64,000 bases of DNA. Origin: Stentor roeselii. Its lineage: Eukaryota; Ciliophora; Heterotrichea; Heterotrichida; Stentoridae. Below the pieces are notes generated by a model. The model searched no databases. It saw only the letters and a list, made by a program, of their open reading frames with translations, and was not told where the DNA came from. Location of the stretch: the NCBI GenBank assembly GCA_006503475.1, contig RSEH01000132.1, positions 62,001 through 126,000 of the forward strand. The letters are read 5' to 3'. A program made the position numbers and the translations under genes. Shown one piece after another: positions 1,145-64,000 of the stretch (positions within the stretch are counted from its first letter, which is position 1; every line of letters starts with the position of its first letter).

Positions 1145-3209
1145 TTATCTAGTCATCTTCGTGTAAAACTCCTCATAAGTCGTCTTGACTGTCGTGACAT
1201 CTTCAACCAGTTTACCAAAGAACCTGAATTCAAATTACAGCTGTTCTCGTGTATCGCCACTCATCATCACCATCAGATTCTGATAAACCCCGCAACTTCC
1301 TCTGTACCTTTCAATGAACTCCAGTACTTCATCGTCTTTTAAGTGTCCGTGGCTATAAACAAAGTGAGAATTCGCTTTACTATTCCCAAAAAGTCGTGAA
1401 AGTAGCTCAGGTTCTGCTTCAAGTCCATAAATAAACCTTACCCACCCAGACGAACATTTCGATTCCAGTGTCAAGAAGATAGGCTCCTTTGCCTTCCAGT
1501 GACATGTACGTTAAATTCAAGACTCGAGAAAAAGACTCATGAATCGGGTACAGTCGAGGATAGATCATTACTCCTGACTCATCTGCTGACAGTGAGTTGA
1601 ATAGAAACTTGAAGTAAAAAAAAAGGTCGAGGTTCAAGTTATCTGAATGAAAATTACACCCGAATGATTTGTTTTGAAAGACCTGATGCTTCACGAGACC
1701 TAAGACACTTGCACAGAAAAACTCTAGTCGTTCTGGTTCTTTTCCCCAGATACGAATGCAGTTTAACATGATTTCTTTAGAAAGGCTTTCAACTGTTGTC
1801 TGTCCAAGATCAGGATTATCATTGACAATCATTTGAAACAGTGCTTTTTTACATATAAAATTAACAAGAGCGTCACAGTTGGCATTGAAGAGCAAGTCTT
1901 TAACAGATTCACTAGTATTAAACTTGCGGTTATGTATTCTGAGCTTTCTTTCACCTTCACAATTAGTATACAACAGAGCAGTCTGAATGTAAAAGTCCTT
2001 CAAAGAAACATTAATCGGAGTAAGTTCAAAAGCGTAGCTTTGCGGGTAGTTATAAACAGGAATTCCAAATAAACCGTCTGGTCTCAAGTTAAAATTTCCA
2101 AAACTCTGCACAATTCTCCACTCAACACTATGTCTAACTTTCAATGAACATTCCCATGCAGTGAGTGTCGTGATGCCCATGATGACCTCGTTTTTCAACT
2201 TCTCAGCTGAAGACCTAGAACTGAAATTCGGGTAAAAAAAAACCTGCCCGCCTGTTAAAGAACTCATCGTCATGAGTCCCTGCAAGTTGCAATAAGCACT
2301 GGTCTTCACGTATTGAGAAAGTGAAATATTCCAATACGAGTACTCTGAACCGATGCTTTCGTAGAAGGTGTTACTTTGTTTGAAGGTAAACTGAAGAGGA
2401 TGTGCACTTTCGCATAACATTTCACCACAGAAACTTATCACTTTGCCTCCTTGGTTTTGAAGAACTAGTCCTGCCGCACGCAAGGCTGAACGGTACCCGG
2501 TGGAGTAAGGCACTGATGGAAGCGACTTCACAAGGTCAAGGGCCCTGATCAGCTTTTCTTCTGCATCTTCGATTGAAACTAGCAGGTGCTCTGAAGGCAC
2601 TGGAAGAAATAACTCGCCTGAGTCTGACTCTGTTATTATTGACACTGAATCATCAGCGAAACTCACGAAATGAACGGATTTGTCGAAAAACATTAGAGAT
2701 ACCTCTGTACGGGGATGGCCTGGTAGAACTTTTGAGGATATTATGATGGAAAGTGTTGTTGTCACTGTATTGATAAAGTCATTTTCTTGAGATTTTATTG
2801 AGATGTCGATTAGGAATAGGAAAATACTTGGCATTGGTGGACGTGACATGTAAGACTCTGGAGCGATTATGTCGATTGACAGCTCAGTCAGTTCAACTCT
2901 CTTAGAAATATCAATTCTCTTTCCTTGACTATCAAGATTCGAGAAATACTCAGCAGGTACCGGGTTGATTGTTCGACAGAGATTGCAAACCCATTTCGAC
3001 CCAGATTCTAAAAATTCACAGAAAGGATTAATATATCCCTTGCATTGAAAACAACGAATCACTTCAGAATTCGGGAAAGAAACAGTTGGAATTGATTCAC
3101 CTGGAAGAAACGGTTTCAATATGCACCCAAAAATGAACTTACTGTCGTCTAAGAGCAACTTTGAGGAAGGTGGACTTGAGGATGTCACTGCTAGGTACCC
3201 TTCTTCCAT
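1145..3209 (-). CDS. SEC24: SEC24-like COPII coat subunit, three exons
   Basis: This is the cargo-selecting inner coat subunit of COPII vesicles budding from the ER. The N-terminal part has the Sec23/24 zinc ribbon (CFQC near residue 53, CNLC near residue 76), then the trunk (vWA-like) domain beginning near PPMPSIFLFLIDIS, the beta-sandwich and helical regions, and a C-terminal gelsolin-like domain (FVWVG, then LEAEPELLSRLFG). The C-terminus is only recovered by removing introns. A clean 15-nt GT-AG intron at 1224-1238 joins REQL to FFGKLVEDVTTVKTTYEEF, matching the family's end. An irregular 16-nt gap at 1426-1441 restores family spacing (WVG plus 13 residues to the LFG/LGY position). The joined product is about 677 aa. 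It lacks the long disordered N-terminus of animal SEC24. Family assignment is secure; the 1426-1441 junction is less so. Confidence 0.9.
1224..1238 (-). other. 15-nt intron in SEC24
   Basis: On the minus strand this reads gtaatttgaattcag. It has GT-AG ends and A at position 10. It contains a stop in the upstream reading frame; removal continues the Sec24 C-terminus to a TAA at 1145-1147. Confidence 0.85.
1426..1441 (-). other. probable irregular 16-nt intron in SEC24
   Basis: The minus strand reads gtaaggtttatttatg. Removing 16 nt restores both frame and the Sec24 gelsolin-domain alignment. The donor and the A at position 10 fit the other introns, but the 3' end is TATG, not AG. It equals a standard 15-nt intron with one extra T before the last G. 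A 25-nt GT-AG alternative (1417-1441) also keeps the frame but deletes three conserved-spacing residues. Confidence 0.5.
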
Positions 3210-3255
3210 ATTTGTCGTGGAAAAGGTTCAAGAATCATACATTTAGGAATAACAA

Positions 3256-3852
3256 CTAAAACTCGTAGTCTAGTCTTGTCAGGGCTCGGTTTTGGTAGTT
3301 TTTTATTTGGTTCATTCGCTTTTTCACCTTTTTAAAAACGTCGTTTTTCATGGTCTTTACTTCGGGTGATGAGTTTTTACTTTTAGTAAGTTTATATGTT
3401 TTTTCTCTGCTTAGATTACGCACGGCTGGCTTTTCGAGAACTGTTTGGAGTTTTGTTGGAAGGAAACGATGAACTTTACTGTCGTCGTATGCAAGACCGT
3501 CATTCAAAATTTGCAAATCATGATCATGACTGTAAAAAGAAGTAGACAAGCTTTCTCCTAAAAGTGAGCTATCAACCAAGCTCTCTTCAAATCCTTGAGC
3601 AACATCAGCAATATCAACCAAATACGTGGAAAACATAGGTTTCAAGTGTTTCTGTTGTTCTAAACTTTTCAAACTCCTAAAAATTTTAAAAAACCTTTTA
3701 GAAAACCTAGAACAATCCGAGCTATCTTCCTAAAACTTACCTTTTTTAAACATCATAGCCAAGTAGCTCTGCATTAAATGAAGCGCTTCAGCAAGAGCAC
3801 GATTATAGCTATTCTCCAGTGCCCGAGTGGCGAATCCACTGTAGATCGACAT
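3256..3852 (-). CDS. hypothetical protein, 193 aa, one intron
   Basis: I do not recognise this protein. The 3' part is an open frame without a sensible ATG. Extending upstream on the minus strand finds ATG at 3850-3852 (MSIYSGFATRALENSYNRAL) and a 15-nt intron at 3726-3740, which joins AMMFKK to DSSDCSRFSKRFFKIFRSLK without stops. The N-terminus is helical, with paired aromatic and Leu residues; the middle is acidic; the C-terminus is very basic (KKVKKRMNQIKNYQNRALTR). No signal peptide. It lies between SEC24 and another unknown gene on the same strand, with 46 bp to SEC24. Confidence 0.7.
3726..3740 (-). other. 15-nt intron
   Basis: The minus strand reads gtaagttttaggaag, with GT-AG ends and A at position 10. 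It interrupts codon AAA-G|AT and carries an in-frame stop if retained. Confidence 0.8.
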
Positions 3853-3897
3853 ACTATAACTGTAAAAACCCAGAGAATAGTTCAAGCAATGTTTTAA

Positions 3898-4860
3898 TTA
3901 CATAACTTTACACTTATTTTGATGGACATTCGCTTCATACAGCTTCTGAAGTCTTTCACAGTCATTAAGCAGCTTCAGCATCGCTTTGCCTTCTTTGACA
4001 ACAGTGAGCCCAGTGACCATCTTCGGAAGAGCCTTAAGCACAGAAGAGCTTGCCTTGTCTTCCTTATTCTCCCTGTTCTGGCATTCAGAGTAAAGAACTC
4101 TTACTTCAAAAGGCAATTTTTTCTCATGTTTCAAGACAGCTTTATAATAAGCTGCCGGAAGTTTGACTTCTCCACCTTTCAAGCACTTTTCAAGGTACTC
4201 TTTACAGTCATCTCTTGAATTCAAGTCGAAATCGTGGATCAATACCTTGTTAAGGATGAACTCGAAGTACCTGGGAGGGTCAAGCTGTTTGAAACATGCA
4301 AGTTTAATAGAAAGATGAGTGAATTGCCACAGGACAAGCATAGTCTTCGGTAAAGGACTCACACTTTCAATAGACTTACGAATTTTTTCCAATCGCTTTT
4401 CACGAACTCCTGAAATCGAAGCTCGAACTTCAATCGCAATGAGTTTAATCAACAGAAGAAAGTGCTTCGCACTGAGGTACTCGTGGTTAGGGCTTCCTGC
4501 AGGGTCATAACAACGATAAGCAGGAACTGGGATTCTAACTGAATTGTTTGGATGCTGGATTAATATATACCCACTTAACTGAATACCTTCTGACTCAAAT
4601 GGCTCTTCAATAAACTTAGCGAAAAGTCGACTTGTCGAAGTGTGAAACTTGGAATAAGCCATCGAGTCCGATTCACAAAATTCAAGCACAAAGTACTTCT
4701 TGTTAATCTGGTAAAGTCCTGGCATCTTATTCTGTGAAAAGTCAAGAAGTCTTCTCAAATTCGCTGAAATTGAGTTCGTTGAAATCTCCGAAAGTCGCGA
4801 ATCTCCTGCTAAAGACTGAGGACCTGAAGCTTTACTTGACAGTCGGAAGGAATTTTCCAT
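3898..4860 (-). CDS. hypothetical protein, 320 aa
   Basis: I do not recognise this protein. The frame is complete, with ATG at 4858-4860 and stop TAA at 3898-3900. The N-terminal 40 residues are Ser-rich and low complexity. Residues about 45-150 look like a mixed alpha/beta domain (YFVLEFCES, GYILIQHPNNSVRIPVPAYRCYD). The C-terminal half is helical with many Lys and Leu and ends NKCKVM. No signal peptide or membrane span. Its start codon is 18 bp from the start of the divergent dehydrogenase gene, so both must share a very small promoter. Confidence 0.7.
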   Translation of the reverse strand: MENSFRLSSKASGPQSLAGDSRLSEISTNSISANLRRLLDFSQNKMPGLYQINKKYFVLEFCESDSMAYSKFHTSTSRLFAKFIEEPFESEGIQLSGYILIQHPNNSVRIPVPAYRCYDPAGSPNHEYLSAKHFLLLIKLIAIEVRASISGVREKRLEKIRKSIESVSPLPKTMLVLWQFTHLSIKLACFKQLDPPRYFEFILNKVLIHDFDLNSRDDCKEYLEKCLKGGEVKLPAAYYKAVLKHEKKLPFEVRVLYSECQNRENKEDKASSSVLKALPKMVTGLTVVKEGKAMLKLLNDCERLQKLYEANVHQNKCKVM

Positions 4861-4878
4861 GTTTTATATAGAAATATA

Positions 4879-5883
4879 ATGCAAACCACTTCAACTTCCT
4901 CCAGGTACTTCGCCTTGAAGCGCATCATGATCACTGGGGCTTCCAGTGGTATTGGTCGAGCCTGTGCTTTTTGGTTTTTAAATCAAGGAGCGCGAGTGGC
5001 TCTAGTGGGTCGAGACAAGTCAGCTTTAGATGCTATTGGTGAACATTTTCCTCATCAAGCAGTGACGGCGCAGTGCGATTTTGTTTCAGATATGAGTCAA
5101 TACGAACTAGTGACAGGGGTGGTCGAAGCTTTAGGCGGACTTGACATTTTAATCAACGCTGCAGGGCTTATCTTTGAAAACGACTTGGAAGGGACTTTTC
5201 CTCAGGATCATGATTATTTGTTGGATATCAACTTGAGGGCAGTTTTTCATATTTCTTCGATGTGCGCTCCGTTTTTAAAGAGGTCGAAAGGCGTGATCCT
5301 TAACTTTTCAGCGGAATGGGGAAACCGCCCGCAACAAGGAATAATTTCTTATTGCATGACCAAGGCAGGAATTGAGATGCTTACAAAATGCCTGGCTTTA
5401 GAACTTGCTCCTGTGAGAGTAAATGCAGTGGCTCCAGGAGTCACCAGGACAAACCTGATGAATTACTTGCTTGTTCCTCAGGAGGACCAGGACTGGGTGT
5501 ATAGAAGAATCGCGGATACTACTCCTTTGAAACGTGTTGCAAATGTTGATGATATTGCAAAAATCGTGGTTTTTCTTTGTTCGAATAAAGCACGAAAAAT
5601 CACTGGTCAGGTCTTGAGATGTGATGGAGGCCGACATCTGACAAATGCGCTTTTCACTCATTGGGATAGCTCAGGGACTATGTCGAGTAAAATATTTCCT
5701 AAGCAGAATCAACAGGTCATTGGAAGGGAAGTCTCTAGGACGTCAAATCAAAGGTTAAATTTAAGGGAAATGCTTGAAAAGTCAAGATGGTATACGGACA
5801 TGGCTGATGCTCATGTAAAAATTAGAAGTGGGTATAATGCTCGAGAGGTTGAAGAAGATGATGTTTTTGTTGGGGAAGATTAA
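4879..5883 (+). CDS. short-chain dehydrogenase/reductase with C-terminal extension
   Basis: This is an NAD(P)-dependent SDR oxidoreductase of classical type. It has the cofactor glycine motif TGASSGIG (residues 19-26), the structural NAAG (93-96), a catalytic Ser in LNFSAEWG (144) and YCMTK with Tyr158 and Lys162. The CDGG near residue 248 marks the usual end of a ~250-aa SDR. About 82 further residues follow, polar and then acidic, ending EEDDVFVGED, which the core enzyme does not need. The charged Arg in GRDKSAL suggests NADPH preference (inference). The substrate cannot be told from sequence. No targeting peptide is evident. Confidence 0.88.
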   Translation: MQTTSTSSRYFALKRIMITGASSGIGRACAFWFLNQGARVALVGRDKSALDAIGEHFPHQAVTAQCDFVSDMSQYELVTGVVEALGGLDILINAAGLIFENDLEGTFPQDHDYLLDINLRAVFHISSMCAPFLKRSKGVILNFSAEWGNRPQQGIISYCMTKAGIEMLTKCLALELAPVRVNAVAPGVTRTNLMNYLLVPQEDQDWVYRRIADTTPLKRVANVDDIAKIVVFLCSNKARKITGQVLRCDGGRHLTNALFTHWDSSGTMSSKIFPKQNQQVIGREVSRTSNQRLNLREMLEKSRWYTDMADAHVKIRSGYNAREVEEDDVFVGED

Positions 5884-5905
5884 GGTGATTAGTTCCTCTA
5901 GATAA

Positions 5906-7930
5906 TTAACTACTTAAAGAAGCTCTTTCTTCTGGCTTTAGAAGAGCTTTGCTCAGGTAAAGATTCGTAAATTCCAGTAAAATGAAGAGAAAACTTAAAA
6001 CGAACATGAAGATAAATACTTGGTAAATACTTTCCCGGGTGTTGTCACACATTGATTTCTTTAAGGTCTTCATGTAGCTTCTTACAAAGGCGCAGTTCAA
6101 AGCTTTGACAAGTCCTCTGGATCCTAAAACTTTATCATAAACAACTCCCAACTGGTCATGGTCAAAGAAATATTTATGAATTTTTTCTCTTTGAATCAAA
6201 AGATGATCAACTGACGAGTTTATCGAATTGTTCACCTTAATAAGACCTTCTTGTAGATCTAAAGCAAGAGAATCAACTGAACTTTGAAAATCTTGCAAAC
6301 TCGTCTGATACTTTTGAAGGTTTTCCAGGTAGTCTCCAAGAGAGTTCCTCAACGTGCAGTCCAAGTAACTCGAATAACGACTTGAAACTGTTAAATCGTT
6401 CCAGCTTTCAATCACCAAACAAGCTGATTGTCCTAAGTTAATCTTCGGGTTATTCGGAGGTACAATTGGCTTATTTCCACATTTCGAAGCAACGAAAACC
6501 CACTGATCAAAAAGTTTTCTTGAACAGTTTCCCATATAATTCCCAGAGACGCTACTATCTGAGTACTTATTCAGTTCTTGTAAGTTGAATTCAGGAGTCA
6601 GCTGCTGATCTTCATCGACAATATCACTGTAAGTCTCCAGTTTCTTCACTTGGTCGAAATTTTCAGTCATTGATGAAAAATCTGCGAGTTCTGGGGTGAT
6701 TCCCAGTTCGTCATAAATGTATTCTTCTTGATCGATCAGTTCTGTATAGCCTTCAAAGGTTTCATTGAGTTTTAACTGAATATATAAATCGCCGCCTTCA
6801 TTGAGACAGACATTCATATATTCGTAGATGTAGTCAGGCACTACGACGTCGTATTCTTTCAGACCTTCAGGGTCCAAAAGACTGTCGATTAACCCGCAAG
6901 AGTCATTTGAAACGATTCCGAAACTGAGAAGCGAGATACAAAGAACGAAGCCGATGACAGCGAGCAAGCCACTGAAGACCCAATAACAACAAAGCCCGTG
7001 AGATAGTTTCGGCTTGTTCAGGGCCTGGGCAGAAACCGTGATCAAGATCCCAACACAAATAAACCAACCAATAAACAAATAACTCAATGTGAATGATCTC
7101 CATCCAGTCTTCGCAGAGTCTTGATTATCTCGAATCCAGGTCTTGATGTTATCATTTACTTCTTTGTTACCGTTGATGAATTGTTGGATACTGTCATCAG
7201 CTGAATTTATTTCCTTTACTATTCTTCCAGTTTGAGAAATCGTGCTTAAATCAGCCTCTTTAAACGTGTAAATCGTTAAATCGATAGGACTTATAGATTC
7301 TAGATACTCTTGATTAATTTGATAAGTGTAAGTCCCAGATGTTGAAGTGCCTCCAAGATTTTCAATGTAATTCAGTTTTACTTTTCCAGAACTGTAAGGG
7401 TTAGGCGAGTCAGCTTTTGAGTCGGAGAAGTCTGAGTAGTAGTCATTGAGAACTGACTGAAAATCCTTAGTATCTGACTCCAGCCAGTCAGTATCGTCCC
7501 ATAAAGCGTTAGTCAAAATTGCGTATTTATCATTTAAGACTCCAACGATGTAGTCTAGGTCATCTTTCGCTGTTGCCAAACCTATCCAATTGTAGTTATC
7601 GTTACCGTTCAATAAACAGTATGGAATCCTACCTGCTGAGCATTGTAACTGCATGTAACTCTGATAGGCACTGTCAGAATAGTGGATTATGTACCCGCAG
7701 CAACCCATTGCGAGAAAAGTTACTATTGCTGAAAAAGCAACGAAAATGTTGCGAATTCTGTCACTTCGGGCTAATATCTTACGTTTACAACAAACTGCTA
7801 TAAAACATCTGATCAGTGTTGCGAAGATAAAGATTAACAAGGCAAGGGCTGCGAAGACTATCCATGGCATCACTGTCTTTATCAGATCATGTGCATAATC
7901 ATTCCAATCATAGCTACTACTCTGTTTCAT
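5906..7930 (-). CDS. five-span membrane protein, prominin-like
   Basis: A 674-aa protein with prominin (CD133) topology. TM1 is about 18-46, followed by a short Cys-containing cytoplasmic turn (RCFIAVCCKRK), then TM2 about 62-83, a first large external loop of roughly 195 residues, TM3 about 283-306, TM4 about 315-342, a second loop of about 295 residues, TM5 about 635-660 and a short cytoplasmic tail. Prominins bind cholesterol-rich membrane protrusions, including cilia and microvilli, which would suit a ciliate cortex. The call rests on topology, loop sizes and Cys placement, not on a clear sequence match, so it is an inference. It diverges from the MFS gene with 170 bp between starts. Confidence 0.55.
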   Translation of the reverse strand: MKQSSSYDWNDYAHDLIKTVMPWIVFAALALLIFIFATLIRCFIAVCCKRKILARSDRIRNIFVAFSAIVTFLAMGCCGYIIHYSDSAYQSYMQLQCSAGRIPYCLLNGNDNYNWIGLATAKDDLDYIVGVLNDKYAILTNALWDDTDWLESDTKDFQSVLNDYYSDFSDSKADSPNPYSSGKVKLNYIENLGGTSTSGTYTYQINQEYLESISPIDLTIYTFKEADLSTISQTGRIVKEINSADDSIQQFINGNKEVNDNIKTWIRDNQDSAKTGWRSFTLSYLFIGWFICVGILITVSAQALNKPKLSHGLCCYWVFSGLLAVIGFVLCISLLSFGIVSNDSCGLIDSLLDPEGLKEYDVVVPDYIYEYMNVCLNEGGDLYIQLKLNETFEGYTELIDQEEYIYDELGITPELADFSSMTENFDQVKKLETYSDIVDEDQQLTPEFNLQELNKYSDSSVSGNYMGNCSRKLFDQWVFVASKCGNKPIVPPNNPKINLGQSACLVIESWNDLTVSSRYSSYLDCTLRNSLGDYLENLQKYQTSLQDFQSSVDSLALDLQEGLIKVNNSINSSVDHLLIQREKIHKYFFDHDQLGVVYDKVLGSRGLVKALNCAFVRSYMKTLKKSMCDNTRESIYQVFIFMFVLSFLFILLEFTNLYLSKALLKPEERASLSS

Positions 7931-8100
7931 GACCTTTTTGAGATGATTCTACTTTAACCCTTACCGTTCCAATCAGCGATCTATAAAAATCATGTGCATT
8001 AGAAATATCTCCATGAACAAACCTATCAAAATCAACATTATCACAATAGCTAGGTTCTCCCATCTTAAAATATAAACAACTCTCCAACCCACTTCCAATA

Positions 8101-9525
8101 ATGGAGAAAAACATCGCCTATGAAGCTTTAGAAACAATCGGCTGGGGAAGATACAACATTTCGATCTTTTTCATCACCGGAATGGTAATTTAAAAAGAGG
8201 CATGGTTTGGGTTCGACCTGTGGTCAGCGAACATGACCTACATCATTGAAGGTTGCATTGAAGACTGGAATGAATCCACATTTAACATAAGCATCAGTGC
8301 ATCGATGCTTCAAATCGGAATGCTTATCGGAAACCTGCTTTGGGGCATCTTAAGTGACAAGTTTGGCCGAAAAGTTTGTTTTAAAGCTTCAGGCCTTGTT
8401 AATGCTGTCGGAAGTCTGATGCTGGTCTTTTCATTCAACATTTATTTCCTCAGCCTCTCGCTTTTCATCATCGGAACGGCCATGGCAGGTGAGTTAATTC
8501 TCGCGAATGTTTTTTTCTGTGAGTTTTGCCCACCTAGCAAGAGATATTTAATGACTTTGCTTTCTTTGTTCTTCAGTTTCGGGTCTATTACCACTGCTTT
8601 GGTCGCTTATTTAACAGCACTGTTAAACTCGTCAGGTGTTAGCAACTGGAGAATAATTGTTGCTTTTGGAGCTTTTGTTCAGGTTTCGTTAATGTTTTTC
8701 AGGAGCAGGATCAGAGAAACTCCTGTTTTTTTGACGACTCAAGGAAAAATCAGGGAGTCTGAAGAAGTTTTAGATGTGATTTCGAGAGCTAATCAGAAAA
8801 TTGGCTTTGAGTACTGCAAACTTGAAGGGTTCAATGAAAAAGAGCAGGAAATTGACGATGATGATAAAAAGAATGAAAAATGGAGTGCAAAACGAACTTT
8901 TCATGTGTTGTTTGGAAAGGATTTATTGAAAATTACAGTGGTTTGGAGCGTTGTAAGAGAAAATTAGGCGTATTGGCTAGCAGCCTTTTCATTTGCAGGG
9001 TTTCTTTACTTCATGAGGCAGTTTTTATCGTATTTAAGCACTTCTGAGGCGTATTTGATTATCATGATTCAACAAATTGCAGGAATTCCTGGAATTTTAC
9101 TAGGAACTTGGATGGTTGAAAGCTTTTTAGGCAGGAAATGGACAACTTTCTTCACTTTTATTGCGAGTGGTGTTTGTGTTTATATTTTTACTTTAAGTGA
9201 AGAACCGGTTTTTGTATGTTTTAAGCAGGTTCTTGTTATTACCGCGTTTTATTACTTTTTTGTTTATCTCTCATTTGCTGCGCTTTATACTTTCGAAGCT
9301 GAGTCTTTTCCTTCTGAAATCAGGAATCGGGGAGTTGGATTTGTTGGAGTTTTAGCTCGAATTGGAGGAGTCGTTGCTCCTGTTTTCACTGGCGGGCTGC
9401 TTGAGTATGAAAATGGAGTACTTTTGGTGCTGTATTCTTATGCTTTTAGCTATATAACGAGTGGGGTGTTGATGATCTTGCTGAAGGAAACCAGGGTAAG
9501 ATATGATAAAGTGAGAGATGCCTAG
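8101..9525 (+). CDS. MFS transporter, SVOP/sugar-porter type, three exons
   Basis: A 12-span major facilitator transporter of about 464 aa, in the group with SVOP/SV2 and organic-ion or sugar porters. The N-terminus LETIGWGRYNISIFF matches the family's opening GxGxYQ/N helix, and the MFS loop 2-3 signature appears as GILSDKFGRK. The frame is broken twice by 15-nt introns (8185-8199 and 8953-8967); removing both gives a continuous protein from the ATG at 8101. Exon 1 encodes exactly 28 residues. The central cytoplasmic loop contains a charged stretch (KEQEIDDDDKKNEK). The substrate is unknown. Confidence 0.85.
8185..8199 (+). other. 15-nt intron in MFS gene
   Basis: Reads gtaatttaaaaagag, with GT-AG ends and A at position 10. 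It is phase 0, between ITGM and AWFGF. Retention adds an in-frame TAA. Confidence 0.88.
8953..8967 (+). other. 15-nt intron in MFS gene
   Basis: Reads gtaagagaaaattag, with GT-AG ends and A at position 10. It is phase 0, joining VVWSV to AYWLAAFSF. The last three bases form an in-frame TAG if retained. Confidence 0.9.
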
Positions 9526-9655
9526 TCTCATTATCATTTGAATCAAAGCCTTAAATCCCAATTCTTCTTCGCCACCTCCTCAAACTAAACTAACCCTTTA
9601 AGGCTTAACCCAAAAAATCATCCCCAATCTCTTCAACACCCACTCACCCAATAAA

Positions 9656-10903: not shown

Positions 10904-10915
10904 GTTTAGACTATG

Positions 10916-44430: not shown

Positions 44431-44446
44431 AACATTTTTAATTAGT

Positions 44447-48998: not shown

Positions 48999-49949
48999 AT
49001 GTTGGGTTATTATATCGTTTCAATCCTAGTATTCCAATCATTGATTCCAAGAATTTTATCTAAAACTCATTCCGAAGGCTATAAAATCAACTCTTTAACC
49101 TGCTCATTCAACATACCCTGCAAAGCCGGTTGTTTTTCATGCAAAGACATTTCCAGCTACTTTGAATGTTTAGATTCTTCCTCGATTCTCTCATGTCTTG
49201 AAAAATTCGTAAGGGTTAATTAGAATAAATGCCAAGATTCACATTCAAATTCCGATTCAGGCAGTAAAAAAATGAACGTATCATCTTCCCTCTGTTTATT
49301 CGAAATCGATTTACGCACAAAAGACTCTTCTTTATTGTTTCATATGCATTTCCAGTCACCCTTATCAAAATCAACCCTTTTGGCTTACAAGCACCTTCCA
49401 AGTGATTCTTTCGATTCACTTTTAAATGAAAAGCCAGAAGTTCATGCTTTATCGAGCGATTTTAAGAAAATTAAAGGAAATTACTTTATTATCGTTATTT
49501 GGTCTCAAAGTTCATCAAGTAATTCCTTAGAACTAGAATGGAAAACAGAAAAATCAGAAAAAAATCAAATGGTTTTAGTTTTGACTTCTGTTTTAATTCC
49601 TTGTTTTGTGGTCAGTTGTTGTTTTCTCTGCATTTTCAGTTATTTTAGGAGAAGGAAAATGATTAGTCGTCGAAGTGCGGTTTATGAAGCTGTTGAAATG
49701 AGAGATTTTTGTGAAGAGTCTTTTTTTGATTCTGTGTTTCCACTAAGGTACTACCTGGTGCAAACAGAAGAACTGTGCCCGATTTGTTTTGAATTGTAAT
49801 AAAAATGAAGGTTTTCTATTGGGCATCAAGTGAGAATAACTATCTGCAACCATTTATTTCATGCAGAATGTTTTGAAGAGTGGATTCAAAGCAGGCCTGT
49901 TCACTTGAACTGCCCGATTTGCAAGTCACCTCTGATGACATCAAAGTAA
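48999..49949 (+). CDS. transmembrane RING-H2 ubiquitin ligase, three exons
   Basis: A 306-aa protein reassembled across two 15-nt introns. A signal peptide opens it (MLGYYIVSILVFQSLIPRIL), then a luminal region with a short Cys-rich motif (CSFNIPCKAGCFSCKD), a single span (about 188-211, LVLTSVLIPCFVVSCCFLCIF) and a cytosolic tail with a RING-H2 at 255-298. The zinc ligands are Cys255, Cys258, Cys273, His275, His278, Cys281, Cys295 and Cys298, a complete C3H2C3 set. This is the layout of PA-TM-RING/Goliath-type ligases of the endomembrane system, though the luminal part is shorter than a PA domain. Confidence 0.88.
49209..49223 (+). other. 15-nt intron in RING-H2 gene
   Basis: Reads gtaagggttaattag, with GT-AG ends and A at position 10. 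It is phase 0, joining LEKF to NKCQDS; the last codon is TAG if retained. Confidence 0.88.
49796..49810 (+). other. 15-nt intron in RING-H2 gene
   Basis: Reads gtaataaaaatgaag, with GT-AG ends and A at position 10. It is phase 2, splitting the Leu codon after CPICFE. Removal completes the RING-H2 ligands, strong functional support for splicing. Confidence 0.92.
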
Positions 49950-51395: not shown

Positions 51396-51458
51396 TTATT
51401 TCATTGTGAAATATGAGCTAGGTATTTAATTAACTTCAAAAAGCATTTAATTAAACAT

Positions 51459-51662: not shown

Positions 51663-51671
51663 TTATAATCC

Positions 51672-53008: not shown

Positions 53009-53528
53009 GAGGCTTTTTGGTAGTTATTTATATTATTTATTAAAGAAACTAGACATGATTTAACTTTAGATATATTTATCAAGTATTTTTATTGATTATC
53101 GAATACTTAAGTCAAATTAATCATTGGAAATATTTTTAATGTGCTCAAATTTAATCCTTATCAGTTAAAAATTATTTTTATTCAGGAAACTTTCATCTAG
53201 ACTTTTTGGGGTTTTCATTATCGAGTAATTTTGAGAAATTTTTAAAATTGGATTTAGGCAAAGAAATTCAAAGTTTTGATGTTCTTCTCAAAACTGGTCT
53301 CTTCTTTATAAGAAAATCCATCTAGAAAAGGTTTTGGTATCGACTTAAATATTCCCATTTAAAGTTAAAACTCTCTCAAAGTAACATATTTTTTCAAGCT
53401 AAAATGAGAATTTTTATTTTCCTGTAAAAGTTTCGTGTGAAATTATTCTCAGTATTGACAACTGTAAAATTAATTCTTTGGGATAGAAGGAATTCAGTTC
53501 ATGTTTAAGAATTTTTAGTTATTTCAAC
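53009..53528. other. intergenic
   Basis: 520 bp of AT-rich spacer between the unknown basic protein gene and the C2H2 gene. No gene seen. Confidence 0.3.
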
Positions 53529-55566: not shown

Positions 55567-55593
55567 TCCAAAGATCCGTATCTTATATAATCA

Positions 55594-56142
55594 ATGTCTT
55601 CAAAAGAGCTTTCCTCTCTGAAGTGTCTCGAAAGGTTCGAAAGTCCAACAAAGAAAACTTTACATCTAACCAACCCTTTGATTCACGTGGACCAATCAAG
55701 TCGTTCAAACCATTATTTATGCTGCGAAAGTCACGAAGCCGAATTTCAAGAAGACTTCGAAAGTGACGACGAGTTTCTAGTCTTCAACGACTACTTCGAA
55801 GGACTCGTTTTTTCTCATCAGTCTGAAGTAGTTGACTGGATGAAAAGCAAAGACGAAGTCGGTACTCAATGCAACGGAGGGACTCCTATTTCTCTGCAGG
55901 CTTTAAGCAGGGAAGACATCATTGAGACTCATTACAAGGTCATCATTCCAAGGAAAAATCAGGAGTTTCTTAAACATGAACCACTTGTGATGCTTCCAAG
56001 GACTGCTCCTCATGTTTCTTTGCCTGATACTGATGATGAAGGCGCTTTTCAGTGCAGGTATTGCTTTAAAATATTTCTCACGGGTCAAGCTTTAGGAGGC
56101 CATATGTCACGAAAACACCCGAGTAATCAGGGAAAAATTTAA
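55594..56142 (+). CDS. single C2H2 zinc-finger protein with QALGGH motif
   Basis: A 182-aa protein. The last ~30 residues are one C2H2 finger, CRYCFKIFLTGQALGGHMSRKH, containing QALGGH, a motif regarded as characteristic of plant EPF/SUPERMAN-type fingers. The N-terminal part is acidic with Ser and no clear domain. It is possibly a transcription or chromatin factor. The ATG of DBP10 follows the stop by 12 bp. Confidence 0.8.
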   Translation: MSSKELSSLKCLERFESPTKKTLHLTNPLIHVDQSSRSNHYLCCESHEAEFQEDFESDDEFLVFNDYFEGLVFSHQSEVVDWMKSKDEVGTQCNGGTPISLQALSREDIIETHYKVIIPRKNQEFLKHEPLVMLPRTAPHVSLPDTDDEGAFQCRYCFKIFLTGQALGGHMSRKHPSNQGKI

Positions 56143-56154
56143 TATTTAATAAAT

Positions 56155-58221
56155 ATGGTTAAGGGCGTCAGCTTCGAAAGTCTCGGACTGGAGCCCTGGC
56201 TTTATCGAGGAATTAAGAATAAAGGGTATTCTTTACCTACTCCTATTCAACGAAAAGCTATTCCTGCAGCTTTATCGGGAACGGATATGATTGCGGTCGC
56301 GAAAACTGGATCGGGAAAAACTGCAGCTTTTCTTGTTCCTTTGTTGCATCGGCTTAAAGAACATTCGAGTACTGTTGGGGCTAGGGCTGTGGTTATTTCA
56401 CCTACAAGAGAACTGGCGATCCAGACGCTCAGATTCGCGACAGAACTCGGAAAATATAGCAATTTAAAATTCGCACTGCTAGTAGGAGGAGACGGTTTAA
56501 AACAAGAGTTCACAAAACTATCCGAAAACCCCGACGTGATAATCGCGACCCCAGGACGACTGATGCATTTCATAATCGAGCTGAAGTACTCATTAAGCAA
56601 GGTAGAAATCTCAGTTCTAGACGAAGCAGACCGACTAGTCGAAATGGGTCTAATGGAGCAGGTTAAAGTGATTTTAAGTTCAATGAGTTTAGGTTCAAGG
56701 CAAACCCTGTGCTTTTCTGCGACCCTTCCAGATACCTTGGCAGAGTTTTCGAAGACAGGACTTTCTCAGCCGCTTTTGGTGAAACTGGACCAGGAGTTCA
56801 GACTTCCTGAAACTTTAGACCTGGATTTTTTTGTTGTGAGAAGTGAAGATAAACTTGCTGCTTTGGTTCATGTTTTGAAAGGGTTTGGAAGACAGTCTGG
56901 AATCGTTTTTGTCGCAACTAGACATCATGTGGAGTACCTGGAAATGTATCTTGGACTTATTGGCTTCTTGGCTATTGGACTTTTTGGAGCTATGGATGAG
57001 GAGGCTAGGAGAAAGGCACTCAAGATTTTTACTAAGAAGAAGAAAAATTTATTGATTACTACGGATGTCACTGCTAGAGGGATTGATATTCCGTTTTTAG
57101 AGTTTGTTGTACATTTTGACTTTCCTGCTACTCCTAAACTTTTTATTCATCGGTCGGGAAGAGCTGCACGTGCTGGTAGGTATGGGAAGTGTGTAGCCCT
57201 AGTATCCTCTCCAGATATCCCCTATCTAATCGACACATTTTTACAAATAGGAGGACACGACGAGCGTCGTCTAGGCAGCATACCCGAGGACTTACTAACC
57301 TCCGAAAAAGAAGAAATAAATCAATCCCTTCAAAACCAAGACCTAAGTGACCTAGAAAGAAGAGAAAAAAGCGTAAAAAACGCAATAAAAAAGTACAACA
57401 AGACCCGTCCAAGCGCATCCTCAGAAAGTGTCCGTCGATCAAAAGACTTCAAATACTCTCTTCACCCTTCCTTCGACTCAAAGCCAGAAATCGTTGAAGA
57501 CTTCACAAAAAAGTTAAAAGATTTCCGCCCAACTTACAACATTTTAGAACTAAATGCGAAATTTGCAGGAAAACACGAAATCGCTGAACAAATGAAAGAA
57601 AAGCGAATGAAACTTAAAAAGGAAAAACCAAGTTCAAGCTTTATTGAAGACCCTGAAGAAGTAAGAGAAATGGAAGAAATCACTAAAAATATCAACTTGT
57701 CTTCGAATGTTGACGGAAAAGTTAAAAGAGGACAGATGGGAAGTTATAGAGCTGAAGGGTTTTTGAACTATGATGGAATTAAAAGCTTTGAGAAAGGACA
57801 TGAAATTTCACAGTTGTCACTTGAAATGCCGATGGATGATGAGCTTGGACTTAGGAAAAGAGATAAAATGGTCTGGGATAATAAAAAGAAGAAATATATT
57901 CAGATGCAGAAAAAGAAGGAAAAGTTTGAAGTTAATCAAAAATCTCAGAAACTTTATAAAGAATGGAAAAAAGAAACTAAGAAAAGAATTCAAAATGTGG
58001 GAGAAAATGAAGACCCTGATATTGTGAAGAAAGTTGAAAGGAGGAATAAAGATCGATTTGCAAAGGACCCTAGGGAGAACTTCAATAAAATGAAAAAGGA
58101 TAAGTTTAAAGAGAGGATGATGCATAAGAAAACTAAGAAGTTTGATTTGAAGAAAAAACTTGAGAATAAGATTCAGAAGAAGTCAGCTTTCGGTAAATCT
58201 AAAATGATCATTCGTAACTAA
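56155..58221 (+). CDS. DBP10: DEAD-box RNA helicase Dbp10/DDX54
   Basis: An ATP-dependent RNA helicase of 60S ribosomal subunit assembly in the nucleolus. At 688 aa all motifs are visible: Q motif around PTPIQRKAIP (28-37), Walker A AKTGSGKT (49-56), PTRELA (83-88), TPGR (132-135), DEAD (156-159), SAT (188-190), and HRSGRAARAG near 333. The C-terminal ~200 residues are Lys-rich with a DBP10CT-like stretch (GSYRAEGFLNYDGIKSFEKGHEI...KMVWDNKKKKYIQ), which sets it apart from other DEAD-box proteins. Transcription direction matches the flanking genes, with 12 bp upstream and 11 bp downstream. Confidence 0.94.
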   Translation: MVKGVSFESLGLEPWLYRGIKNKGYSLPTPIQRKAIPAALSGTDMIAVAKTGSGKTAAFLVPLLHRLKEHSSTVGARAVVISPTRELAIQTLRFATELGKYSNLKFALLVGGDGLKQEFTKLSENPDVIIATPGRLMHFIIELKYSLSKVEISVLDEADRLVEMGLMEQVKVILSSMSLGSRQTLCFSATLPDTLAEFSKTGLSQPLLVKLDQEFRLPETLDLDFFVVRSEDKLAALVHVLKGFGRQSGIVFVATRHHVEYLEMYLGLIGFLAIGLFGAMDEEARRKALKIFTKKKKNLLITTDVTARGIDIPFLEFVVHFDFPATPKLFIHRSGRAARAGRYGKCVALVSSPDIPYLIDTFLQIGGHDERRLGSIPEDLLTSEKEEINQSLQNQDLSDLERREKSVKNAIKKYNKTRPSASSESVRRSKDFKYSLHPSFDSKPEIVEDFTKKLKDFRPTYNILELNAKFAGKHEIAEQMKEKRMKLKKEKPSSSFIEDPEEVREMEEITKNINLSSNVDGKVKRGQMGSYRAEGFLNYDGIKSFEKGHEISQLSLEMPMDDELGLRKRDKMVWDNKKKKYIQMQKKKEKFEVNQKSQKLYKEWKKETKKRIQNVGENEDPDIVKKVERRNKDRFAKDPRENFNKMKKDKFKERMMHKKTKKFDLKKKLENKIQKKSAFGKSKMIIRN

Positions 58222-58232
58222 TTTCCTTAAAA

Positions 58233-59186
58233 ATGGCAAGGAAACTTCAGCTCTCTGAGCTCGACATACTCCAAACCCTAGGAACCGGTTCATTTGGTCG
58301 CGTGCGTTTAGCACGTATAAAGAATTCCGGTGTCTTCGTGGCATTGAAAATCTTAAAAAAGTCAGAAATTCTAAAACTGAAGCAAGTAGATCACGTAATC
58401 TCGGAGTTTTCAGTCTTACGTGTGATAAACCATCCGTTTCTTGTGAACTTGCTTGGATACACTCAAGATGAGAGATATTTGTACTTCATGTTGGAGTTTG
58501 TTCAGGGAGGAGAGCTTTTTACATACCTTAGGAATATTGGGAAACTTGAACTTGATCATGCAAGGCTTTATTCTGGACAGATTGTTTGCATGTTCGAGTA
58601 CCTCCATTCGATGAATATTGTTTATAGGGACTTGAAACCTGAAAACTTACTCATCGGGTCAGACGGCTACCTAAAACTTACTGACTTCGGCTTCGCGAAA
58701 GTCATCGAAGGAAGAACTTACACCTTATGTGGGACTCCTGAGTACCTGGCTCCTGAGATCCTTCTAAACAAAGGACACGGTAAGCCCGTAGACTGGTGGA
58801 CATTAGGAATCATAATCTACGAAATGTTAGCCGGTATCGACCCATTCAGCGACGAAGACCCAATGGCGATATACCAAAAGATCTTAAAAGGCAAGATAAA
58901 ATTTCCTCGTTCATTCGACTCAAACGCCAAGAGTCTAGTAAAGCATCTTCTAGTCGCCGACCTAACAAAACGTTTCGGGAACATGAAAGGCGGAGTAAAC
59001 GACATAAAAGGTCATCGTTATTTCTCAGGTTTCGACTGGGTCCGTCTTCTTCAAAAGAGTCTTCTGATGAAGTTCATTCCAAGCATCAAGAGTCCAAACG
59101 ACAGTTCAAATTTCTCTCATTACCCAGACTCAGCAACTCAATCACCCCCAGTGAAGAGGTCAGACGATCCTTTTATAGACTGGTAG
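58233..59186 (+). CDS. cAMP-dependent protein kinase catalytic subunit (AGC kinase)
   Basis: A 317-aa Ser/Thr kinase with the full catalytic set: G-loop GTGSFGRV (17-24), VALK Lys39, helix-C Glu58, YRDLKPEN (Asp133), DFG (151-153), and the activation loop TYTLCGTPEYLAPE with Thr164 as the phosphorylation site. PKA features include the GTPEYLAPE block, VDWWTLGIIIYEM, and a C-terminal tail ending FIDW in the place of FxxF. The short N-terminus lacks the PKA A-helix. It is PKA-like, though PKG cannot be fully excluded. Likely roles are ciliary beat or signalling. Confidence 0.9.
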   Translation: MARKLQLSELDILQTLGTGSFGRVRLARIKNSGVFVALKILKKSEILKLKQVDHVISEFSVLRVINHPFLVNLLGYTQDERYLYFMLEFVQGGELFTYLRNIGKLELDHARLYSGQIVCMFEYLHSMNIVYRDLKPENLLIGSDGYLKLTDFGFAKVIEGRTYTLCGTPEYLAPEILLNKGHGKPVDWWTLGIIIYEMLAGIDPFSDEDPMAIYQKILKGKIKFPRSFDSNAKSLVKHLLVADLTKRFGNMKGGVNDIKGHRYFSGFDWVRLLQKSLLMKFIPSIKSPNDSSNFSHYPDSATQSPPVKRSDDPFIDW

Positions 59187-59210
59187 TTAGTTAAAATATT
59201 AAAAAAATTA

Positions 59211-60365
59211 CTATCGAGGTGATAACTGGTTCATATCAATAAATTTAAAGACCTCTTCATTTACATTTGAATTACTTTTTGAGTACTTTGAACGAGTTAC
59301 TTGTTTTGGTTCTTTTTCTTCTTTGACTTGGATAAAATCATGAGTTTTTAAGTAACTTTGAGCGAGTTTTTCATTGTTTTCTAGAAGAGTCTCGTTTTCT
59401 TTAGAGATTTTAACGAGTGCTTCTGTGATTTTTTCGATTTCTAGCTTCATTGACTCGATGTGCTCCTGGATGTCTAGGAAGACTTTATCGTCTTCTTCGT
59501 TTTCTTTGTAGCTTAGAGCCATTATGTCGAAGGATAAGGTGTGTTGACGGTTTAGGCTCAGTTCGAAGAGGTTTTGAGAAGTGTTTTTTAGTGGCGCTAC
59601 TGATAAGGGAACTACGTGCTCACCTTCGCTTTCTTCATCACTTTCACGTGATTTTATTATCTCCATGCTTAAGTCGTTTTTGAAGTTTGAGTTCATTCTT
59701 TCGATCCCGAACTTACGATTCATCGGGTTTTTCATCAAAATCTTTAATTTTTCTACCTCTTTTCGTAAGATTTCAGAATTTTCAGCTAGTTTTTCTTTTT
59801 TGGTTTGGAGGGCGTAAAGGTTACGAGCTTCGTAGGATAAAATCATTTTCAGATCTTCTACCCGACAGTGAAGATCGAGGTAGTCTTCGTTTGGAGGGAC
59901 CACGATCATGTTTCTAGATTTTTTGTAAAGTTCTGAATCTTCTTCTAGTTGTCTGATGCGAATTGACAGTTCTGAAATGATTTTACTTCTTTTATCATTT
60001 TGGAAAATGATATCAGTAATTTTATCATTAGACTCTGCAATCAACTCTTGTTCTTTTCTTATGTATTCAGTGGCGATCTGCTCATCCATCAAAGCCTTTG
60101 CCTGGTTGTCTTCACATTCTTTGACCTTTTTTAAATATAGGTCTTCCATTCCTCTGACTTCTCGCATCAATTGAGAGATGATGTTTCCTGTATCGGAATT
60201 AGAGATTTTGTTGCTAATCAACTCGAATAAGACTTGCTTGTTCAATGAAAGACTTTTTTCCATGTCTTGGATGTAGTTGTGTAAGTCTTCGTTTTCCATT
60301 GAAATCCACTTTGAACGAAGAGCTCTTCGTGAAGTACTACTTGTTGCTGCTGCTGGGTCTGACAT
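59211..60365 (-). CDS. coiled-coil protein, 384 aa
   Basis: I do not recognise this protein. Heptad coiled coil covers about residues 20-215 and 280-345. A linker with acidic Ser (SRESDEESEGEH) lies between. No membrane span. It may be structural (basal body, cortex or spindle), which is inference. It converges on the PKA gene with 24 bp between stops. Confidence 0.7.
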   Translation of the reverse strand: MSDPAAATSSTSRRALRSKWISMENEDLHNYIQDMEKSLSLNKQVLFELISNKISNSDTGNIISQLMREVRGMEDLYLKKVKECEDNQAKALMDEQIATEYIRKEQELIAESNDKITDIIFQNDKRSKIISELSIRIRQLEEDSELYKKSRNMIVVPPNEDYLDLHCRVEDLKMILSYEARNLYALQTKKEKLAENSEILRKEVEKLKILMKNPMNRKFGIERMNSNFKNDLSMEIIKSRESDEESEGEHVVPLSVAPLKNTSQNLFELSLNRQHTLSFDIMALSYKENEEDDKVFLDIQEHIESMKLEIEKITEALVKISKENETLLENNEKLAQSYLKTHDFIQVKEEKEPKQVTRSKYSKSNSNVNEEVFKFIDMNQLSPR

Positions 60366-61211
60366 TTTTAGTGATTTTGGATTTAAAAATAAGGAGATGG
60401 GTTTTAAGTATGGGTTGAGGAAATTAGTTGGAGACTAGGATTGGTAGAATTTAATGAAAGAGAGATGGATTTATATTAATAATAAGGTTTAAAGGTTTTA
60501 TTAGGATGTGTTTTTTTGATTTGTTTTTGTTGATCAAAGATTTTTACAAATTTTGATTTTTGAAGATTGGTTTAAAGAAGTATCAATATTTTCAATTTGA
60601 GACATGGTTAATTTTAAAATTCCTAGATATATAATATAAACTATAAATATAGAGAAAAAATTTATAATAGCTAAATCTTAAGGAATAAGAGCGATCTCAA
60701 TACACTTGCACTTAATTTTCATTGATCTTGTTCTAAAAGTAAAAGCTATTATAAAATTTTAATTACCTATTACAATGAATCACTTAGTTCAATGTTATAC
60801 GATATAATTTAAAAATTCTCATCATTTATATTCTTTTAAACAAAATTTAAGATTTCACCAGGTTAGATGTTAAAAGTAATCTTTAAAATTGAAATTATCA
60901 TTTTTCGAGGAGCGCCTATATCATTCTTATAACAAAATCAGTCATTATTCCAGATTATCATCCTTAAATCTCAAGATTTTAATTGTTTACTATTGATTGT
61001 ATCTATTAATAAGTCTCAGATGCGCTTACTAGTGTCTCGTTAACAAGAGAATATATATTCCTAATTTAAGATTTTTATTAGGTTTAGAATTAATATCTGA
61101 ATTGATAGAAGAGACCTTTTAATACTAAGCTAAACGAGATCATGGTATTCAAATAGATATATAATTTTATAAAGGATATTATGAGATATATTTAATATTC
61201 TAAAGTAATTA
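60366..61211. other. long intergenic, no gene seen
   Basis: About 850 bp of AT-rich DNA between the coiled-coil gene's 5' end and the 3' end of the Cys-rich gene. No frame or RNA gene supported. Confidence 0.35.
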
Positions 61212-64000
61212 TTAAGACAACTCTGATTTTCTGAGTTTGTTTAGTTCAGTCCATAGTACTTTCAATGTTTGATAAAAGCAGTACATCGATAATAAAACTT
61301 GAAAAAATAGTGAGAAGATTATGCTAAAAATGATCGCAAGTTCTATATTTTTTTGATGTTTTTGACTTATTTCCCAGCAAAAAGTATAGCAGAGGGTCGA
61401 TACAAAAATAATGCATATTTCACTCGCAACATTAGAAATCTGAATTGAAAATTCTTTGAAAGGCTTGTAATACCCTAAAAAGAATAAAGAAAAAAATGAT
61501 AAGATAACATTAATTCCTCCTTGAACCTTCGGAAGAAAATTAAAATAAACCAAGTTAATTCCATATAAAACCCTTCTCAAAAAATAAAAAAAATAAAACA
61601 AAAAGCTGAAAAATCCTTTATCATTTTTGAACTCATCAAAAAGACTTCCCCATTTTTTCCTAAATTCAGCCGAGTTTTCTTGAATACTTTTAAAAAAAAT
61701 ACAATAAAAAATAAATACCAAAATTGGTGTAAAAACCACTCCAATCTAAATAATTCATACGGCAGCTAAAAATGCAAAACATAAATTAAAATACCCTTGA
61801 TTTCTTATTAAAACATTCTATTTATTCCATACAGATCTCATCTGAATTAAACTAAAAACAAAAATTTCTAAATAACTTTGAGTCCAGAACCTTAAAAAAA
61901 ATCCATAATGATAATTTCCTAAGATTTTTAAAATTTTCTGCAAAAACTTTCCCATCGGTAACACTTTTGTAAGAGCATATAAAATGGGCCAAGCTGAAAG
62001 TGTTGCAACAAAAATAAAAAAAATCTTTCCAGTATTAATAAAAAATACAGATGATTTGATTCCGTAACGTCTGGCTTCGAGATATGCAGATGAAGAAGCA
62101 TCTGAATCAAATAAAGAACTTAAAAAATTCGGAAGAATGTTGTAATCTGAAAAACCTTTTAAAAAAGCTTGAATTGTTGGAGTTAGTTTATTTGAACTTA
62201 TAGGTAAAAATGTTAGGATTTGAATTGAATTCAATAAAGCCCAAGCTGCTGATGGGTTGCTTATTATTGAAGCGCCGATTGATGTTGAAACAGCGCTTTT
62301 GCTGATTGAACCTGCGGATTTCATAAGTGCTTCAACTGCAGGGTTTTGATTTATTAAGGTAAATAAAGGAAGGATACTGTGAAATGAGTAGTTTTCTAGC
62401 ATGGAACCTGAAACACTGTAAATTTTTTCTTTTAAGATCCTGAGTTGGATTATTGTGTCTTCACCAACTGACTCGTCAAATTTAATAGAAAACAAAAATT
62501 CTTTATTTGATTTGTTTTTTAATAACTGAGTTTTAAAATCTGTTATTTTTTCAATAAAAAATTCAAAATCGCTTTCTGTTATAAATGTTTTAATTTCTTC
62601 GGAAAAAGATAGTTTTAACAGAAAATCTGAATTTATTGTAAGATCTGCTCTGAAATATTTTTCGATGCAGATGTTTTCTGAAGGTTGGAATCCTTCAGGA
62701 CATTCACAATAGTTTAAGCTATTTAAGGTTGAGTTTTCTACACATTCAATACATAGAGGATTGCATTTTTTACAAAGAGATGGGCACCATCGGCAGGTAT
62801 CATTGAATAAATAAGTAAAATCAGGGCACTCAAGAGTACAAATTCCAAAAATAGGAAAATATGAACGACGACGACATTTTAAACAGAATGTACTGTTAAG
62901 ACATGATTCACAATCTTCTGTGCAATTATGGCAAGAGTAGTCATAAAGATACATTCCATAATTACATGAATCGCATTTTCCATTAATTTTAATAATATTG
63001 CTAGCACAAGATTCACAATTATCACTCCCTTCACCAGAACAGTTCAAGCAATGTCTATCACAAATTCGTGCATAAAAACTTAAAACAGGATCATAGTCAA
63101 TAAAAAATCCTTGTTTAGCAACACATGTATCATTTTGAAGTTCAGAGTTTTCAGGACATTCACAATTTCCTTTAAAATTGCTCATTTGTTTAAATAAGCA
63201 AATTGTGCACATTGTAAAATTTTCACATTCAATGCAATTCTCTGGACATTTAGAGCAACTTAGAGAACTATTTGATGACGAATTGTAAAAACCTGAAAAA
63301 CATTTGCAAAAAGGACTTTGTGGAAGAGCGAAAGGGTCAGAACAATTAGAACAAGTACTGGAATCTTCACAGAAGCTGCAATCAATGTGACAAGGTTCGC
63401 AGGTAGTATTCTTATAAAAACCATCAAGACAGTCACATCCTTTTTCTGAAGACGGAAGAGAATAAGGGTCATTACATGATACGCAAATTAATGGATCATC
63501 ACATGTTTTGCATTCACTGTGACATTTGAGGCAAGAGCCTTGAAAAGTGAGTTTTGAATCATTGAAATATCTTTCTTTGCATAAACATCCGCCGGTAAGT
63601 TGAGGTTCTGAGTTTATATCAATACAAAAATTGCAGGTATAGTTATTTGAACAATTCTTGCATTCATTAAAACAAGGTAAGCATGATTCTCTATTATTTA
63701 TAATCGATTCATTATAAAAACCTTGTTTACAGTAGCATCTTTGAGTGTCTAAAAGGTATGAATTTGGATCAATACATGATAGACAGCTGAATTCATTAGA
63801 ACAGTTTTTGCACTCTTTTAAGCAAGGTAGGCAAGATTGATTATTATTTATTTCTGAGGTGTTAAAAAAACCTTCATTGCACAAACATCTTCCTGATACT
63901 AAAAGGTTAGAGTTGAGGTCTATGCATGAACTACAACTGATTCCATCCAAACATGTTTTACATTCGCTCATGCATGAAAAGCATGATTGATTATTTTGAA
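61212..64000 (-). CDS. large Cys-rich repeat membrane protein, 5' end outside window, three exons visible
   Basis: The frame is open to the window edge, so the N-terminus is missing. About 918 residues are present. The first ~430 consist of repeated furin/EGF-like Cys units (C-x2-C pairs about 10-20 residues apart, such as ESCLPCFNECKNCSNN). A ~200-residue region with fewer Cys follows, then several membrane spans. Two 15-nt introns (61818-61832 and 61746-61760) join the first exon to a short 19-codon exon and a 177-aa C-terminal exon containing more spans (SLFFLGYYKPF, LAIIFSIIFSLFF). The membrane part somewhat resembles TRP/Flc-type channel domains (weak inference). Such Cys-repeat giants are typical ciliate surface proteins. 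Confidence 0.8.
61746..61760 (-). other. 15-nt intron in Cys-rich gene
   Basis: The minus strand reads gtatgaattatttag, with GT-AG ends and A at position 10. Phase 0 between FLAA and IGVVF; TGA in frame if retained. Confidence 0.88.
61818..61832 (-). other. 15-nt intron in Cys-rich gene
   Basis: The minus strand reads gtatggaataaatag, with GT-AG ends and A at position 10. Phase 0 between QMRS and NVLIR; last codon TAG if retained. Confidence 0.88.

Follow-up and report, generated by a model that had tools for sequence, protein, structure and literature searches.

Fifteen-nucleotide introns in a heterotrich ciliate genome and splice signals as putative phase-dependent stop codons

How an intron whose length is a multiple of three can be noticed when it is retained is a question raised by a 64,000-nucleotide (nt) stretch of contig RSEH01000132.1 (positions 62,001 to 126,000 of the forward strand; hereafter the window), in which eight 15-nt elements lie within genes. 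An intron of 15 nt, a multiple of three, leaves the reading frame intact when it is retained. With the length fixed at this value, unspliced messenger RNA (mRNA) is no longer betrayed by the usual frameshift, and its decay can therefore depend only on a stop codon inside the intron. The eight elements are very probably spliceosomal introns of the U2 type in the macronuclear genome of a heterotrich, and their splice signals appear to double as stop codons according to intron phase.

An initial annotation of the window had described eight 15-nt elements that begin with GTA, end with AG and carry A at position 10 (A10), six with a GTAA and two with a GTAT donor, and this description is exact at every position. 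Four lie on the minus strand (1224, 3726, 61746 and 61818) and four on the plus strand (8185, 8953, 49209 and 49796). Comparison of joined and unjoined translations reveals that each of the eight, read in the phase in which its exons are joined, contains at least one in-frame stop. The predicted introns are the following.

1224..1238, minus strand: 15-nt intron GTAATTTGAATTCAG, phase 2, with GTAA supplying the stop TAA; in the gelsolin region of the Sec24 gene
3726..3740, minus strand: 15-nt intron GTAAGTTTTAGGAAG, phase 1, with TAG at 9-11 as stop; no Pfam match in this gene
8185..8199, plus strand: 15-nt intron GTAATTTAAAAAGAG, phase 0, stop TAA at 7-9; MFS transporter gene
8953..8967, plus strand: 15-nt intron GTAAGAGAAAATTAG, phase 0, stop is the TAG acceptor; same MFS transporter gene as 8185
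49209..49223, plus strand: 15-nt intron GTAAGGGTTAATTAG, phase 0, stop is the TAG acceptor; N-terminal part of a membrane RING protein gene
49796..49810, plus strand: 15-nt intron GTAATAAAAATGAAG, phase 2, stop TAA from GTAA; within the RING finger
61746..61760, minus strand: 15-nt intron GTATGAATTATTTAG, phase 0, in-frame TGA and TAG; Cys-rich membrane protein gene
61818..61832, minus strand: 15-nt intron GTATGGAATAAATAG, phase 0, stop is the TAG acceptor; same Cys-rich membrane protein gene as 61746

Length class, adenosine 10 and splicing machinery

The sample analysed comprises the window and 25 further 10-kb stretches of its genome (314 kb in total); L-numbers such as L023 designate sampled stretches outside the window. 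Genes were traced with a model made of a start, codons and a stop, which admits GT-AG introns of any length from 12 to 24 nt under a flat length prior and with no other motif. Neither length 15 nor A10 is a criterion of this length-blind model, and stops matter only since codons may not be stops; GT-AG itself is a requirement. A second run was weighted by a learned motif (motif-weighted run). The motif score with which stop-free introns were sought was trained on 33 of the 34 motif-blind 15-nt introns, all 33 with stops, after one ambiguous register had been dropped. Initial settings that fragmented genes (2486-2925 ‘genes’) were abandoned. Counting candidates by frame restoration alone is noisier than the gene model, and GT-AG candidates also peak at 15 nt by that count (14/104).

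A single length class emerges. The length-blind model yields 65 introns, of which 34 measure exactly 15 nt, with 0-6 at each other length, and five control dinucleotide pairs give 2, 1, 3, 1 and 0 introns at length 15. When lengths from 12 to 80 are allowed, 24 introns of 15 nt are returned, any other length has at most three and no further class appears. Although not asked for by the model, A10 occurs in all but two of these 34 motif-blind introns (32 of 34); the motif-weighted run finds 40 introns of 15 nt, 39 with A10, and 22 of these 40 interrupt the initial third of their coding sequence. The 16-nt class amounts to six introns predicted by the length-blind model, which is near noise; the most convincing one, L011:1053-1068 (GTAAGGCTAAAAATAG), has A at position 11, lies near the start of a kinase-like gene and agrees with the minor 16-nt class known from Stentor.

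Across the genome (44.4 Mb in 522 contigs, searched by pattern), GTAAN5AN3AG has 10339 matches, compared with 8181 when the A is at position 11 and 6462 when it is at position 9; the 16-nt form with A at position 11 has 5363. Of the three positions compared, 10 is thus the one at which A is commonest genome-wide, and the initial annotation withstands the refuting condition that it had set for A at this position; the fixed length, GT-AG ends and near-invariant A10 that it put forward are supported. Roughly 3,500-5,000 real GTAA introns may be present genome-wide, an estimate derived from the three 15-nt counts and the base use of the motif-weighted run on the assumption of equal chance levels.

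Six of the eight sites in the window were recovered by the length-blind model, 3726 among them in the overlapping register 3722-3736; the motif-weighted run preferred 3726-3740. Sites 61746 and 61818 escaped both runs, which terminated the gene at the stop within the intron; support for these two comes instead from alignment with a paralogue. The Cys-rich gene (61212-63971) has a distant paralogue in L023, 26-27% identical over the matched parts and gapless across both junctions. The paralogue has its own 15-nt intron, GTAAGGTTTATTTAG (L023:461-475), in the same alignment column and phase as 61746-61760; it has no intron at 61818, and the alignment is gapless across that junction. Large Cys-rich membrane proteins recur in the sample (window 61212-63971, L005:3170-5769 and L023:461-6322), and one of them shows weak TRP-like similarity at its C-terminus (17.0 bits, less than the cut-off).

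Protein domains support several other junctions. In the MFS gene, retention of 8185 lowers the MFS_1 score from 119.6 to 101.8 bits, and retention of 8953 lowers MFS_1 from 119.6 to 102.6 and Sugar_tr from 102.3 to 96.5 bits. In the RING gene, zf-RING_2 falls from 46.0 to 36.2 bits when 49796 is retained. The intron at 49209 joins an upstream exon with an ATG to the RING gene on the basis of frame and start codon, Pfam placing no domain at this junction, and the gene containing 3726, with its overlapping alternative 3722-3736, has no Pfam homology. At 1224, an alignment of the joined Sec24 protein with Sec24C extends through the junction region. Elsewhere in the gelsolin region of the Sec24 gene there is a frame break (window 1426-1441, minus strand), where conserved spacing would fit the absence from mRNA of a 16-base GTAAGGTTTATTTATG. 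This element exceeds the 15-nt intron L023:461-475 by one base, and may therefore represent an indel in the assembly or an atypical intron with GT-TG ends.

A junction comparison with the sampled proteome found a spanning match for 8 of 44 sites. The two strong spanning matches favour splicing (152 versus 147 and 157 versus 151 bits); they belong to L019:2510-2524 and L019:3991-4005, phase-2 15-nt introns found in the same alignment column of two neighbouring paralogues (~44% identical) on opposite strands.

The genome also encodes components of the splicing machinery. U1 with ACUUACCU, U2 with GUAGUA and U6 small nuclear RNAs (snRNAs), the three that were searched, all score above the Rfam cut-offs, and a U5/U2-snRNA-binding domain, which we take to be that of Prp8, reaches 242.5 bits. 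With regard to decay factors, the UPF1 zinc-binding domain has eight genome matches (on C52, C515, C90, C49, C505 and C1), one at 198.9 bits and seven at 52-83 bits, which suggests an expanded UPF1-like family, and the C-terminal part of the UPF2 domain (positions 81-132 of 133) matches at 34.1 bits.

Stop use in 87 open reading frames (ORFs) of at least 900 nt (264 kb) is TAA 55, TAG 24 and TGA 8. The telomere repeat CCCTAACA, which Stentor shares with Blepharisma, gives as a threefold repeat 547 overlapping matches genome-wide and none in the reversed control, located at contig starts or contig ends among the matches listed; no such repeats were found in six sampled 300-base contig ends. The standard code, CCCTAACA telomeres and canonical U1 and U2 together indicate that this is most likely a macronuclear heterotrich genome, Stentor-like rather than from Blepharisma.

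Intron phase, stop codons and stop-free introns

The sequences at the splice sites vary with intron phase. Among the 40 introns called by the model itself, a T in position 13 (T13), which makes the acceptor TAG, occurs in 15 of 18 phase-0 and 5 of 16 phase-2 introns (p 0.0045), and the GTAA donor in 15 of 16 phase-2 and 10 of 18 phase-0 introns (p 0.019); phase 1 is rare (6/40). At a motif score of at least 13, where stop-free introns are also visible, T13 is found in 7 of 9 phase-0 and 2 of 10 phase-2 introns (p 0.023). With three hand-added phase-0 introns, the p values are 0.0016 for T13, 0.023 for T13 at score at least 13 and 0.010 for GTAA.

Stops are, however, not universal. Discovery through broken frames finds only introns with stops, so that stop-free ones remain hidden, and the suspicion of such a bias voiced in the initial annotation was well founded, as stop-free introns exist. 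A scan of 248 kb of coding sequence against 300 synonymous shuffles, in which position 13 is counted solely as pyrimidine or purine, gives seven stop-free matches at score at least 13 where 1.2 are expected, and none of the 300 shuffles is as high. Strong homology backs one of these matches as an intron, GTAAGAAATATTCAG (L014:2837-2851, phase 0), in the EMC2 gene: the protein aligns to 6ww7_B, presumably human EMC2, without gaps at 115.2 bits when the 15-mer is removed, and at 107.1 bits with a five-residue insertion if it is kept. The statement that every intron carries an in-frame stop consequently stands for the eight sites of the window, as an effect of how they were found, and fails as a rule, given the EMC2 alignment and the motif scan.

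The highest motif score among all stop-free coding matches belongs to a candidate absent from the initial list:

1643..1657, minus strand: 15-nt candidate intron GTAATTTTCATTCAG, stop-free and in phase 1; lies in the Sec24 gene that also contains 1224

The homology evidence for it is mixed, since its removal raises the scores of 10 and lowers those of 6 of 16 PDB chains. Other strong stop-free candidates are L004:689, L005:3594 and L005:9652, which have no known domain over the junction, and L011:2867, which has no spanning match in the sampled proteome, its only comparison set. Two further motif matches were rejected as exonic. The lower-scoring L021:2068, in an ABC transporter, gives 88.5 bits for ABC2_membrane unspliced and 74.9 spliced, and MFS_1 marks the match at window 9214 as exonic (119.6 unspliced, 104.9 spliced), Sugar_tr being neutral (102.3, 103.0).

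Exons appear to avoid sequences resembling these introns. In the window and the 25 stretches, 12 coding matches score 9-12 where 24.3 are expected, and none of 300 shuffles is as low; with position 13 ignored the depletion is weaker (24 versus 33.2, 13/200 as low). On this evidence it is rather likely that the splice-site consensus depends on phase in such a way as to double as a stop (GTAA in phase 2, TAG in phase 0), with phase 1 under-used and exons cleared of middling look-alikes.

Proposed mechanism and alternative explanations

The mechanism proposed joins what was computed here (length class, A10, snRNA genes, a stop-free intron and phase-dependent sequences) to steps that we infer (RNA splicing, the branch-point role and decay). 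Introns would take the form GTA(A/Y)N5-A10-NNYAG, overwhelmingly of 15 nt, in a standard-code genome. The end of U1 snRNA would pair with the 5′ end of the intron. Judging from its position and from the literature, A10 would serve as branch point, with the YAG acceptor five bases on, giving a lariat with ten bases in its loop and five in its tail, as proposed for Stentor. The splice sites hold two built-in stops, the TAA of GTAA in phase 2 and the TAG acceptor in phase 0, and selection appears to maintain either signal in the phase that puts it in frame and to be relaxed in the others. No built-in stop arises in phase 1, where introns are few and most of the strong ones are stop-free.

These patterns might also arise without any selection for stops, the phase differences and the rarity of stop-free introns then resulting from the mode of detection and small numbers. 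Introns with stops are indeed easier to detect; GTAA introns in phase 2 always carry a stop, whereas 37.5% and 6.2% of the phase-2 introns would do so if placed in phases 0 and 1, and the stop-free class becomes blurred once position 13 is left out of the score. However, the excess of stops persists at scores where stop-free matches are visible. Phases were permuted over a set of introns and stop-free matches, two probably exonic ones being counted as introns. Stops occur in 29 of 37 at score at least 11.5, compared with a mean of 21.3 (23 of 20000 permutations as high), and in 19 of 26 at score 13, compared with 14.6 (374 of 20000); in phase 1, they occur in 1 of 6 at score at least 11.5. There are, moreover, no stop-free phase-2 coding matches at score at least 11, where simple arithmetic predicts about 12 if phase 2 used non-GTAA donors like phase 0. 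An origin without selection retains some weight and is regarded as unlikely. An enrichment of stops beyond detection bias is partly supported, in a small sample; with the correction that stops are favoured in these introns and not universal, the suggestion of the initial annotation that retained transcripts are targeted for decay fits.

Two other explanations concern the nature of the 15-mers themselves. They could be internal eliminated sequences (IES) left in the DNA and removed at the DNA level, since short segments of DNA lying within genes are excised in ciliates (PMC9942806). The ends of the 15-mers are nevertheless GT-AG with A10 and not TA repeats, and a somatic genome whose introns are spliceosomal agrees with the single 15-nt length, the snRNA genes and the telomere-capped contigs; on these grounds the IES explanation was rejected as highly improbable. 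Alternatively, ribosomes could bypass or read through 15-mers that the mRNA keeps, an idea in keeping with the stop that breaks the frame at 8/8 sites. A stop-free 15-mer interrupts EMC2 likewise, and the specificity for GT-AG over the five control pairs points to the spliceosome, so that bypassing too was rejected and can scarcely be credited.

Several observations weigh against spliceosomal introns with phase-dependent stops, or at least against parts of this interpretation. The reversed-pattern control for A10 gives 10765 genome matches, not lower than 10339; those for the A9, A11 and 16-nt A11 forms give 11439, 11183 and 12449, and the shifted-A comparison was preferred because the reversed pattern has a different composition. 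Within coding sequence, GTAA...A10...AG shows no excess (13 versus 13-23 at other A positions). With position 13 ignored, the excess of stop-free matches is weaker at score 12 (8 versus 4.2, 11/200 shuffles) and absent at scores 11 and 13. A strong stop-free candidate, L023:4459, is probably exonic, scoring 99.4 unspliced and 90.1 spliced against its closest paralogue. Apart from this site, the weak spanning matches (at most 38 bits) are mixed and several are higher unspliced, and Sugar_tr rises slightly, from 102.3 to 103.8 bits, when 8185 is retained. Finally, the phase tests cover 26-44 introns with phases taken from an ab initio model, and phase differences in splice sites could have causes other than stops.

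If splice sites evolve by phase to supply a stop, mRNA quality control shapes the splicing code itself. There is also a practical consequence: gene models derived from broken frames miss stop-free introns and therefore add five spurious residues to proteins.

Comparison with known systems

Introns of 15-16 nt were reportedly described in Stentor coeruleus by Slabodnick in 2017. According to PMC9505925, this species has 8806 introns, of which 8173 (92.8%) are of 15 nt and mostly GU-AG; A at position 10, the proposed branch point, is present in 90.9% of all introns, and U1 with ACUUACCU, U2 with GUAGUA, the standard code and a 5′ bias of introns are also reported. The genome studied here resembles it in the 15-nt length, A10, U1 and U2 motifs, standard code and the share of introns in the first coding third. 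S. coeruleus has a minor 16-nt class, which is close to noise in the present predictions. More generally, heterotrich introns are ~95% of 15 bp, the rest being of 16 bp, and introns of a length divisible by three (3n introns) are depleted in Loxodes and other ciliates (PMC11441545). The introns of the window are thus of the known heterotrich kind, in one more genome.

Blepharisma stoltei, with introns mainly of 15 and 16 bp, CCCTAACA telomeres and a 41 Mb AT-rich, gene-dense somatic genome (PMC9942806), is similar in its tiny 15-nt introns and telomere repeat. It differs in its code: UGA encodes tryptophan there, whereas TGA ends 8 of the 87 long ORFs here, and the standard code therefore fits.

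As to stops, the terms stop codon, nonsense, in-frame, multiple of three and retention are all absent from the main text of PMC9505925. Among the papers on ciliate and Stentor introns covered by the searches, none was seen to describe splice sites that serve as stops according to phase, a scope that does not prove absence.

The closest parallel is Paramecium, in which Jaillon is said to have described stop-enriched 3n introns in 2008. In Paramecium and other ciliates, 3n introns are under-represented and enriched for in-frame stops, the stop counted being TGA, and this enrichment is explained by the decay of unspliced mRNA (PMC5014332). Unlike in Paramecium, the dominant intron length in the present genome is itself 3n, and the stops come mostly from the splice sites, as the TAA of GTAA or the TAG acceptor.

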